Shown here one piece after another: positions 12,863-28,219 of a DNA stretch of 64,000 nt. The notes under the pieces are model-generated. The model saw only the letters and a list, made by a program, of their open reading frames with translations. It ran no database searches and had not been told where the DNA came from. How positions within the stretch are numbered: the first letter of the stretch is position 1; the number at the start of each line of letters is the position of its first letter. Position numbers and translations under genes: made by a program. This stretch comes from Anaerolineae bacterium (GTDB lineage Bacteria; Chloroflexota; Anaerolineae; Aggregatilineales; Phototrophicaceae): the NCBI GenBank assembly GCA_022826865.1, contig JAJDUC010000028.1, positions 124,001 through 188,000 on the forward strand, read 5' to 3'.

Positions 12863-14014
12863 ATGGCGACAAGCGCGGTCCCACTCGCGCCTTCTCATAT
12901 CTACGCCGCTGAAATAGACAAGGGAAGTCTGTGGCTGCGCAACAGGCGCTGGGATTTGTTCTTCATCACCCTCAGCGTCGTGGTGGTGCCGCTGCCCTAT
13001 CTGATGTACCTGCTGGGCGTGCGCCTGGGGATCGCGGACGACATCAGCCGTAATCTGGTCAATACCTTTGTGGCGGTGGCGATCGGCGGGCCGCACATGA
13101 TGTCTACATTTCTGCGCACCGGCCTGGACGAGCGCTTTAAAGAGCGCTACCCGACTCTGATCCGCTCTTCAATTATCATCCCGGTCTTGGTGATTTCGCT
13201 GGCCTTCCTGAATTTGAGCTTGATGCTGACGTTTTTCTTTTTCTGGGCGTCGCTTCATGTCTTGCATCAGGTGACTTATATTGTCGAATTGTACAATCAC
13301 AAGGAAGCGAAGTTCGTACGCAAGAGCGCTTTGAGCCCGGTTTCACGCTTGGTAGATTACGCCGTTGTGCTGACCAGTCTGTTTCCCGTCGCGATGTGGA
13401 AGATCAGTCAAGGCACCTTTGAAATCGGGCAAAATGACCTGGGCGAGGCGATTCCCGACCTGTTTCAGCAGCCGGACAATCCCTGGCTATTTGTTCTGTT
13501 CGCGTTGGTGTTCGGTTTGGCGCTGGTCTCTTATGTCGTCAAGAGCGCTTACGAGCATTACCACGGCATTCTTAACCTGCCGAAATTTGCCTTTGTTTCG
13601 TTGACAGTGCTGGTGGCTTTTTGCACGCCGATGTTGCCCAACCTCGATACCGCGTTTCAAGGGCTGAATACCTGGCATTCTTTCCAGTATCTCGCGATCA
13701 CGTTTTACATCATCAAGGTGCGGCAGATGGCGGGCGATCTGGATGATAGCGCGCCGCTGGTTGCGCGTTTCAGCCGTCGAACGGCCGATTCGCGCGCGCT
13801 TTACGGCTTTAGCGCGATGCTGCTGGTCGGTTCAGCGGTCATCTTCCTGCTGGTCTATGCGCTGGCCGGTATTGTCAGGCCGGGGATTGATGGCAACAGC
13901 CATTTTGATATCGCCTACTACACCGCGATCTTGTCATTCCTGTGGATCCATTACTACCACGACCATTTCTTATTCACCGACTTTGAAGCGCTCGATCGCG
14001 CCTTCGCGTCTTAG
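12863..14014 (+). CDS. Polytopic membrane protein with conserved-looking histidine clusters
   Basis: 383 residues with eight or nine membrane helices; the family is not named here. Histidines cluster at helix ends: GGPHMMSTFLRT (His78), SLHVLHQ (His132, His135), YEHYHG (His232, His234), NTWHSFQY (His272) and WIHYYHDHF (His363, His366, His368). Paired H-x2-H and H-x-H groups in a membrane bundle recall metal-dependent membrane oxidases and hydroxylases or haem-binding proteins, but no known signature fits fully. AGGAG before the ATG supports the start, and it has its own likely promoter. Confidence 0.75.
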   Translation: MATSAVPLAPSHIYAAEIDKGSLWLRNRRWDLFFITLSVVVVPLPYLMYLLGVRLGIADDISRNLVNTFVAVAIGGPHMMSTFLRTGLDERFKERYPTLIRSSIIIPVLVISLAFLNLSLMLTFFFFWASLHVLHQVTYIVELYNHKEAKFVRKSALSPVSRLVDYAVVLTSLFPVAMWKISQGTFEIGQNDLGEAIPDLFQQPDNPWLFVLFALVFGLALVSYVVKSAYEHYHGILNLPKFAFVSLTVLVAFCTPMLPNLDTAFQGLNTWHSFQYLAITFYIIKVRQMAGDLDDSAPLVARFSRRTADSRALYGFSAMLLVGSAVIFLLVYALAGIVRPGIDGNSHFDIAYYTAILSFLWIHYYHDHFLFTDFEALDRAFAS

Positions 14015-14124
14015 TCGGCCCTTTGAGGATTGTCTGGTACTGGGCGCTTGTCGCGTGATTCTGCCTCCCATGACTTCTTCATGCTTTCACATTACGTTGT
14101 TGGAAGAATTCAAGGAGCGGGCTC

Positions 14125-14334
14125 GGGAAAATCCAGGGCAATCGCATCAAAATCACAATGAGCCGTTCGCCACGAAAATTGTTCAAATGTAGGGGCGTCT
14201 CGTGAGACGCCTGTTGAAAATGGCCTGCAAATTGCGGGCGTTTCAGCGAAACGCCCCTACAGATTACGAAATGTGAGGCGAAATTGTCATTTGTCAGCGC
14301 AATTTCAATTTGATGCGATTGCCCTGGGGAAAAT
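14125..14334. mobile_element. MITE-like element with 19-bp perfect terminal inverted repeats and an inner hairpin core
   Basis: CCAGGGCAATCGCATCAAA (14133-14151) is repeated exactly in inverse at 14309-14327. The repeats are flanked by GGAAAAT/GGGAAAAT on both sides (14125-14132 and 14327-14334), a likely 7-8 bp target duplication. Inside lies a second inverted structure at 14188-14261, with perfect 11-bp ends TGTAGGGGCGT/ACGCCCCTACA. Each end folds into its own hairpin (GGCGTCTC-GT-GAGACGCC and GGGCGTTTC-AGC-GAAACGCCC). There is no open reading frame, so it would depend on a transposase elsewhere. It fills most of the 439-bp gene-free stretch at 14015-14453. Confidence 0.75.
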
Positions 14335-14453
14335 CGGGATTAGTTGTTAGCTTCTCTGGTCGTCGTTATCATTAGGCTAATTCCCCAGCCGCGCTGTGCA
14401 TCGACGCATACTTCGGGACGGCGGAAATACTGTTTGAGGCATGACGTCAATCC

Positions 14454-15197
14454 ATGGAAACGCCGCCAGTAGTTGAGACGAAGCGCCTGAGCCGGTATTT
14501 CAAAGGGGTGGTCGCCCTCAACGAGGTCAGTGTCTCGATATCATCCGGTGAAGTAGTCGGACTGGTTGGTGACAACGGCGCGGGCAAATCAACACTGGTC
14601 AAGATTCTCTCCGGCGATCTGGAGCCTTCCGCCGGTCACATGTTGATTGACGGCGAGGAAGTGCATTTCCGCCATCCGCGCGATGCCAAGAAAAGACAAA
14701 TTGAGACGATCTATCAGGATCTGGCGCTCTGTGAAAACCTGGACATTATGGAGAATGTCTTTCTAGGTCACGAATCGTACCGCAACCCGCTATTGCGCCT
14801 TCTGGATCGCCGGAGCATGTACCGCGAAACCAGCCAGCTTTTAGATGAGTTGGCCATTAGAGTGCCATCCACTCGTGAACTGGTGATGAACCTCTCCGGC
14901 GGGCAACGCCAGGCGACCGCGCTGGCGCGCGTCGCCAAAGCCGGCGCGCGGCTCATCATCCTCGACGAGCCCACTGCCGCGCTGGGCGTCAATGAAACGC
15001 GCAACTTGCTCGACCTGGTCATGCGCTTCAAGGCGCAGGGCAAGACGATCATTATCATCAGCCATGAAATGCGCGATGTTTTTGAAGTGACGGATCGCAT
15101 CATCGTGCTCAAGCGCGGCAAATTGGTGGCGGATAAACTCACATCGGAAACCGATCCGGATGAGATTGTCCGCTATATCATCCGCGGTCGCGATTAG
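14454..15197 (+). CDS. Sugar ABC transporter ATP-binding protein (CUT2 type, single domain)
   Basis: Complete ABC ATPase: Walker A GDNGAGKST, Q-loop YQDLAL, signature LSGGQRQATALARV, Walker B RLIILDEPTAALG and H-loop SHEM. It powers the permease encoded 12 bases downstream. CUT2 sugar importers of the RbsA/XylG kind usually carry two fused ATPase halves (about 500 residues); this one has a single half (247 residues), as in FrcA-like systems, so it should act as a homodimer. It is the first gene of an importer plus sugar-acid catabolic operon. Confidence 0.93.
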   Translation: METPPVVETKRLSRYFKGVVALNEVSVSISSGEVVGLVGDNGAGKSTLVKILSGDLEPSAGHMLIDGEEVHFRHPRDAKKRQIETIYQDLALCENLDIMENVFLGHESYRNPLLRLLDRRSMYRETSQLLDELAIRVPSTRELVMNLSGGQRQATALARVAKAGARLIILDEPTAALGVNETRNLLDLVMRFKAQGKTIIIISHEMRDVFEVTDRIIVLKRGKLVADKLTSETDPDEIVRYIIRGRD

Positions 15198-19708: not shown

Positions 19709-19877
19709 GAATTCCAGGTACTGTATCAAAGTCGGTTGAATTTCTTCAAATACCGACGATTTGGTAGGGGTGACTCGGTGAGTCGCCCAATTTCGATCCT
19801 GTTTTACCCATCGGGCGATCCGCCGGATCGCCCCTACCAGGCTATTTCAACCGAAATTGATTCACTACCGAATTCCA
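19709..19877. mobile_element. MITE copy 1 with 8-bp target duplications
   Basis: The element spans 19717-19869 (153 bp) and is flanked by GAATTCCA at 19709-19716 and 19870-19877. The left end GGTACTGTATCAAAGTCGGTTG is matched in inverse by the right end, with mismatches, as CAACCGAAATTGATTCACTACC. Inside are inverted TGGTAGGGGTGA (19762-19773) and TCGCCCCTACCA (19828-19839). It is about 90% alike to the copy at 28035-28211 outside a 22-bp insertion there. There is no coding capacity. It accounts for most of the 414-bp gene-free stretch 19551-19964; I see nothing clear in the remainder. Confidence 0.85.
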
Positions 19878-28026: not shown

Positions 28027-28219
28027 GTTTCTTCGGTACTGTATCAAAGTCGGTTGCATTTCTTCAAATACCGACGATTTGGTAGGGGCGACTGACGGGC
28101 TGTGTCCACGCGCCCCGGTGAGTCGCCCAATATCGATCCTGTTCGTACCCATTCGGGCGATCCACCGGATCGCCCCTACCAGACTATTTCAACCGAAATG
28201 GATACACTACCGTTTCTTC
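28027..28219. mobile_element. MITE copy 2 with 8-bp target duplications, next to the rplU promoter
   Basis: The element spans 28035-28211 (177 bp) and is flanked by GTTTCTTC at 28027-28034 and 28212-28219. The terminal repeats GGTACTGTATCAAAGTCGGTTG and CAACCGAAATGGATACACTACC match in inverse at 18 of 22 positions. A perfect inner pair TGGTAGGGGCGA/TCGCCCCTACCA lies at 28080-28091 and 28170-28181. Compared with copy 1 it has about 22 extra bases (near 28094-28116). It is non-coding. With the rplU leader and promoter it accounts for the 372-bp gap 27874-28245. Confidence 0.87.

Follow-up and report, generated by a model that had tools for sequence, protein, structure and literature searches.

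The window, a stretch of 64,000 nucleotides from an Anaerolineae bacterium (assembly GCA_022826865.1), contains a small repeat with perfect inverted ends around a hairpin-forming centre, and this raised the question whether it is one element or a mobile hairpin carried inside another. The repeat measures 193 bp (14134–14326), and its 18-bp perfect ends (CAGGGC...GCCCTG) are enclosed by an exact 9-bp target duplication (Table 1). The original prediction had taken the ends as 19 bp and the flanking repeat as GGAAAAT; the exactness of the inverted ends and the flank repeat were both confirmed, while the nineteenth base was found to belong to the target duplication, and GGAAAAT is part of GGGAAAATC read one base off. 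None of 100 shuffled sequences contained two such end sites at up to three mismatches, and the terminal arms continue imperfectly as far as 31 nt (84%). The 74-bp core with matching ends was recovered as predicted, with TGTAGGGGCG at both boundaries, one per strand; two such 10-mers occurred in 1 of 100 shuffles, and the boundary repeat by itself is statistically weaker than the 18-bp ends. Folding of the core into two hairpins, which had also been proposed, is possible as an alternative structure, but a single long hairpin has the lowest energy (−22.6 kcal/mol, z −5.1). The fold of the whole element gave z −7.2. The 193 bp are too short for a transposase gene, and the 149-aa frame at 13743–14192 enters them from outside. 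A search of Rfam with 13900–14500 (E ≤ 1) and a search of plasmids with the element in distant mode returned no match, and the one exact end match in viral contigs (L080) was located inside open frames of the contig and was taken as chance.

Table 1. Predicted features of the nested element and of the second MITE type, in coordinates of the window
Feature	Position	Strand	Basis or remark
Left target-site duplication GGGAAAATC	14125–14133		Exact 9-bp flank repeat
Left terminal inverted repeat CAGGGCAATCGCATCAAA	14134–14151	+	ISAs1-family insertion sequences share these ends
Left MITE arm	14152–14187	+	Aligned with genus copies and near-empty copies
REPIN core, two inverted GTAG-foot hairpins	14188–14261		Found without MITE ends in sister genomes
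REP hairpin 1, GTAG foot and GGGCGTCTC/GAGACGCC stem	14189–14211	+	Sequence
REP hairpin 2, GTAG foot and GGGCGTTTC/GAAACGCCC stem	14236–14260	−	Sequence
Right MITE arm	14262–14308	+	Alignment of genus copies
Right terminal inverted repeat	14309–14326	−	Exact inverted match to left end
Right target-site duplication GGGAAAATC	14327–14335		Exact 9-bp flank repeat
Second MITE type, ends GGTAGTGAATC.../...GATACAGTACC, REPIN inside	19717–19869	−	8-bp duplication TGGAATTC
Second MITE type with REPIN, 22-bp hairpin insert in one REP loop	28035–28211	−	8-bp duplication GAAGAAAC

The distribution of the element was monitored in the genome that contains the window (hereafter the own genome). A 210-bp query gave at least 46 matches, a lower bound because 40 of 278 candidates were scored, and the first 40 were 155–210 bp long with 90–100% identity. 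Most copies start at position 7–11 and end at position 199–206 of the query, which fits a 193-bp unit. The flanks of the many copies are independent of one another. The 18-bp end was found at 310 sites with up to three mismatches, and the reversed-pattern control gave none. At least 13 contigs have their start 139–141 bp into a copy, which is the pattern that a repeat interrupting the assembly should leave. The search for ends with and without the core, which had been suggested as a check, showed both REPs in 31 of 33 distinct two-ended copies (elements of 100–330 bp in the own-genome loci examined) and no intact empty version among them; the count leaves out one-ended and broken copies, some of which are cut within the core (e.g., L399 and L400). 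The two exceptions were a 149-bp copy with part of the core deleted and a 276-bp copy with an unrelated interior. In the genus genome G006, both REPs were read in the sequences of 23 of the 26 two-ended copies. The core is thus now a fixed part of one element, and a recent or variable insertion was not borne out. One locus (L015, 1342–1693) contains two copies separated by 10 bp, and the second seems to have used the first one's target repeat as its insertion site.

Target duplications were measured in the 30 own-genome elements for which both flanks were available. An exact flank repeat of 8–10 bp was present in 12 of the 30, against a mean of 0.46 when the right flanks were shuffled, and a 9–10-bp repeat with at most one mismatch in 18, against 0.67. 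Similar values were obtained in G006, where the exact repeat was seen in 8 of 24 elements (shuffled 0.33) and the 9–10-bp repeat with at most one mismatch in 16 of 24 (shuffled 0.68). In a mechanical test, 20 of 25 testable own-genome insertion sites were outside open frames of at least 200 codons and 5 were inside. This bias, the strong fold of the whole element and the location of the window copy in the gap that separates an open frame (end at 14014) from an ABC-transporter frame (start at 14454) would agree with co-option of the element for transcription termination or as a structure at mRNA ends, and with its retention in that role; any tolerated insertion, however, is expected to show an intergenic bias, and this explanation is considered unlikely.

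The matching transposase, which the original prediction had asked for, was sought through the ends. A scan of named genome contigs returned at least 108 stretches; among the 80 listed, 58 were titled as Chloroflexota or groups within it and 22 as other phyla, so the end type is widespread. Many of the end-bearing stretches were elements of 110–450 bp with 10-bp duplications and different interiors, and others were insertion sequences with a transposase of the ISAs1 family. One of these, from the same genus (L087 in G030), is 1245 bp long, has ends matching 18/18 on both sides and an exact 10-bp duplication, and encodes a 399-aa protein scoring 409.8 bits against NF033564 (ISAs1; cut-off 70). 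Others were found in Aromatoleum (L094; ends 18/18, 10-bp duplication, 387.0 bits), in Polaromonas (L115; one end with 1 mismatch, 10-bp duplication, 377.6 bits) and at L081 (ends with 2–3 mismatches, 9-bp duplication, 372.4 bits). A 1930-bp element with such ends (L172) gave no match in NCBIfam. PF13808 matched in 6 of 34 genus genomes and had no match in the own genome, the bin of which is 96.4% complete in 131 contigs; since the bin is incomplete and contigs start inside copies, a repeated insertion sequence could be missing from the assembly. Target duplications of ISAs1 elements range from 8 to 10 bp. Because complete insertion sequences with an ISAs1 transposase carry the same ends and 10-bp duplications, the outer unit is classified from its sequence as an ISAs1-type MITE. 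It resembles other MITEs of ISAs1-family insertion sequences in its 18-bp ends, which are identical to those of such insertion sequences, its 9–10-bp duplication, its high copy number and the lack of a transposase gene, and differs from them in that its centre is a REP pair and that the parent insertion sequence was not found in the own genome. The palindromes around GTAG and CGTC dimers are called targets in the relevant part of Di Nocera 2013 (PMC3733652), and by analogy the outer palindrome could be a mere target of REP insertion and no transposon at all; flank duplications of 8–10 bp far in excess of shuffled flanks, together with identical ends on transposase-bearing insertion sequences, strongly disfavour this and leave it highly improbable.

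The core consists of two inverted hairpins with a GTAG foot, that is, a REP pair (REPIN), and its occurrence apart from the MITE was examined among 101 relatives, the own genome included. Matches to the 193 bp were found in 33 of the 101, many of them spanning the core alone; in 12 genus genomes (G000, G002, G004, G005, G006, G008, G011, G015, G017, G019, G020 and G023) the match was nearly complete, covering 190 or more of the 193 positions. When 20 stretches around core-only matches in sister genomes were inspected, 14 contained no end-like site at up to 4 mismatches, and the flanks of these 14 differ from one another. The other six had such a site (L201, L205, L207, L210, L212 and L213), near enough in L201, L210, L212 and L213 to belong to a related MITE, and several further sister-genome copies retain one recognisable end. 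Exact GTAGGGGCG feet in both orientations were present in 13 of the 20 stretches, and some of the others hold single or same-direction hairpins (e.g., L218 and L220). A bare REPIN was seen by eye at what seems to be the same gene boundary in G017 and G013 (L204 and L206), which suggests long residence there.

With up to 2 mismatches allowed, the REP pattern with the TYTC stem was detected in 32 of the 34 genus genomes and in 37 of the 101 relatives. Counts of ends and REPs dissociate, being 30 and 266 in G010, 19 and 127 in G031 and 211 and 4 in G027. Near-palindromic hairpins may count on both strands, and the end counts contain some noise (up to 4 in the control). G027 was dropped as an example of a genome with MITEs and without REPs, since its MITEs carry another REP subtype. 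In the own genome, contigs C28 and C20 were covered in full (380 kb), both hairpins of the window copy being recovered on C28, and nearly all TYTC-stem hairpins were within the MITE; a core-only REPIN of this subtype, with an insert in its loop, was found at C20:39204. The independence of this subtype rests mainly on the sister genomes. Pairs with other stems do exist in the own genome without ISAs1 ends, and two of them (C28:5967 and C28:35976) have one flank in common and may belong to a further repeat.

A second MITE type was recognised as a palindrome, GGTAGTGTATC...GATACAGTACC, around a REPIN that belongs to a different stem subtype. The own-genome loci examined contain eight distinct copies, five of them with an exact 8-bp duplication, and two are in the window (Table 1). 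Two MITE types carrying REPINs were thus seen in the own genome. In one of the eight copies (L043), a copy of the first MITE was inserted into the REP, and two own-genome elements (L392 and L397) combine the left end of the second MITE with the right end of the first MITE, the REPIN being the point of junction; these chimeras point to recombination at the REPIN as their likely origin.

A gene for the enzyme that might move REPINs was searched with PF01797. In 5 of 34 genus genomes (G005, G010, G011, G026 and G028), a RAYT-like gene with a partial match has GTAGGGGCTTGCC hairpins on both sides. The hairpin before the gene is inside the stop-to-stop frame and presumably upstream of the true start. 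These flanking hairpins, GTAGGGGCTTGCCTTGGCAAGCCC, have the same foot and stem base (GTAGGGGC...GCCC frame) as the core, and the stem tip differs. The one protein scanned, from G028, scored 68.8 bits against NF047646 (cut-off 80) and 32.4 against PF01797 (cut-off 23). G033 contains other PF01797 matches without such a hairpin pair. The PF01797 search detected no RAYT in the own genome, where the sole match was a 654-aa protein with a Y1-like domain that was rejected as unlike a RAYT. Proteins of ~640–780 aa with a weak C-terminal Y1-transposase-like domain account for the match to PF01797 in 12 of the 34 genus genomes; such frames were seen at L049 (1–1836; 22.8 bits against a cut-off of 23) and similarly in L271, L279, L282, L283, L285 and L286. 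The frame directly after that of L049 is one we take to be polA-like, and the domain is possibly a domesticated one.

The pair resembles REPINs or BIMEs with a RAYT (REPtrons) in being an inverted pair of GTAG-foot hairpins dispersed in the genus, with a RAYT-like gene between GTAG hairpins in five sister genomes, and differs in that it is fixed within a MITE and multiplies along with it, and that a RAYT was not detected in the own genome. REPtrons and GTAG recognition are described in PMC6006769. Fixed hairpins in nearly all two-ended own-genome copies, the composite in 12 genus genomes and the ends kept beside some core-only matches would also be seen if a single palindromic MITE family had included the core from the start and the core-only copies were remnants lacking ends. 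Against this are the 14 end-free stretches with mutually different flanks, the REP pairs of other stems in the second MITE type, whose ends are different and whose duplications measure 8 bp, and the RAYT-like genes flanked by related hairpins; a common origin of core and ends is quite unlikely on these grounds. What stands of the original prediction is hence the origin as a nested composite built from a mobile hairpin, with the core family found outside MITE ends and a REPIN in another MITE.

The age of the nesting was approached through copies lacking the core. In a pattern search of 34 genus genomes, no short empty element bounded by exact 12-bp ends was found; an arm-only model then found near-empty copies in G012 and G006, whose altered ends had kept them from matching the exact pattern. 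The G012 copy (108 bp) has both arms and neither core nor target duplication; among 10,000 letter shuffles, its right-arm alignment score was reached by none and its left-arm score by 3, and it may be a deletion. A model built without this copy recovered it together with two near-empty G006 copies of 123 and 125 bp. The arm-model matches listed also included a G006 copy of 140 bp that retains one REP and a G011 copy of 153 bp that has one hairpin. The two near-empty G006 copies have TG..AG and TGTA..ACAG at the positions of the REPIN feet and flank repeats matching at 9/10 and 8/10 bases. In the arm tree, for which support values are not given, they cluster together among full G006 copies. They look like secondary losses of the core, which would have occurred either once, the empty form then moving, or twice. 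As the near-full-length composite is common to 12 genus genomes, the nesting of the REPIN in the MITE is probably older than these 12 species. A degenerate direct repeat of ~12 bp was seen by eye in the alignment, on both sides of the core; it is not claimed as a target duplication of the REPIN and could equally mediate deletion.

These findings together make it very probable that an ISAs1-type MITE gained a REPIN centrally long ago and that the 193-bp composite has been multiplying as a single unit ever since. Movement of the whole unit by its 18-bp ends would depend on an ISAs1 transposase acting in trans, and a RAYT (REP-associated tyrosine transposase) would originally have placed the REPIN in the MITE. 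In the own genome, the REPIN would spread as a passenger of the MITE, it could be lost by deletion close to its feet, and it may serve as the shared homology where the two MITE types recombine. Two kinds of genomic parasite, a MITE and a REPIN, would then travel as one unit in a Chloroflexota genome. REPINs are believed to rely on a RAYT resident in the same genome. Once fixed in a MITE, a REPIN would gain a second way to spread, which could explain high REP counts where a RAYT was not detected; it also provides a natural test of whether the hairpin passenger helps the MITE or merely burdens it, and the chimeras indicate a route by which unrelated MITE families may exchange ends.

That REP pairs occur inside longer palindromes is known already from the literature available. 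Di Nocera 2013 (PMC3733652) reported GTAG repeats in several phyla, the Chloroflexi included, and in three species (A. variabilis, T. roseum and H. neapolitanus) dimers of the GTAG or CGTC type that lie within palindromes of greater length. The likeness is that of a dimer nested in a conserved longer palindrome; in section 7 of that paper the palindrome is treated as a target and is tied to neither a transposase nor target duplications, whereas here the ISAs1-type MITE has a transposase link and duplications, and the second MITE type has duplications. An Anabaena ISAs1 insertion sequence and 147 MITEs are described in PMC3542288, the ends of the MITEs being, in the part concerned, without evident similarity to its insertion sequences. 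A search by title and start of abstract, with most subscription papers outside its coverage, found no paper on a REPIN inside an ISAs1-type MITE, and the tie of REPINs to two MITE types flanked by target duplications, with chimeras joined at the REPIN, was not met in the portions of the literature covered.

A wider reading is offered tentatively and as a whole: REPINs would be a shared passenger module in the genus, which MITEs of unrelated transposase families repeatedly acquire centrally; they would spread without a RAYT of their own, unrelated MITEs would form chimeras at the common core, and the hairpin loops would host a third unit, a self-inserting 22-bp hairpin with a covarying stem. 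This hairpin has a 4-bp stem and a conserved loop, GCGT[AG]GACACN, and was observed in the window (28035–28211) and in L022, L372, L387, L389, L399 and others. Its sites are REP loops, the space between CACCGAG repeats and the interior of other copies of the same hairpin. A literature search for the 10-base loop gave unrelated titles among those listed. The 4-bp stem is perfect in 46 of 53 distinct loop occurrences in the loci examined, mainly as GGTC/GACC, GGGC/GCCC or CCGC/GCGG. In an alignment of 26 rows, 19 of them picked for a perfect stem and the other 7 being the rest, the covariation score of the stem was 0.518; shuffling gave 0.120, with none of 500 shuffles reaching the observed score, and sliding gave no more than 0.203. 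The number of pairs with two-sided change was ordinary (291 of 500 shuffles). By eye, the insert looks precise against unfilled loops and without target duplication. At 44 distinct sites with units on both sides, the numbers of units were equal at 36 (one at 28, two at 7 and three at 1) and unequal at 8.
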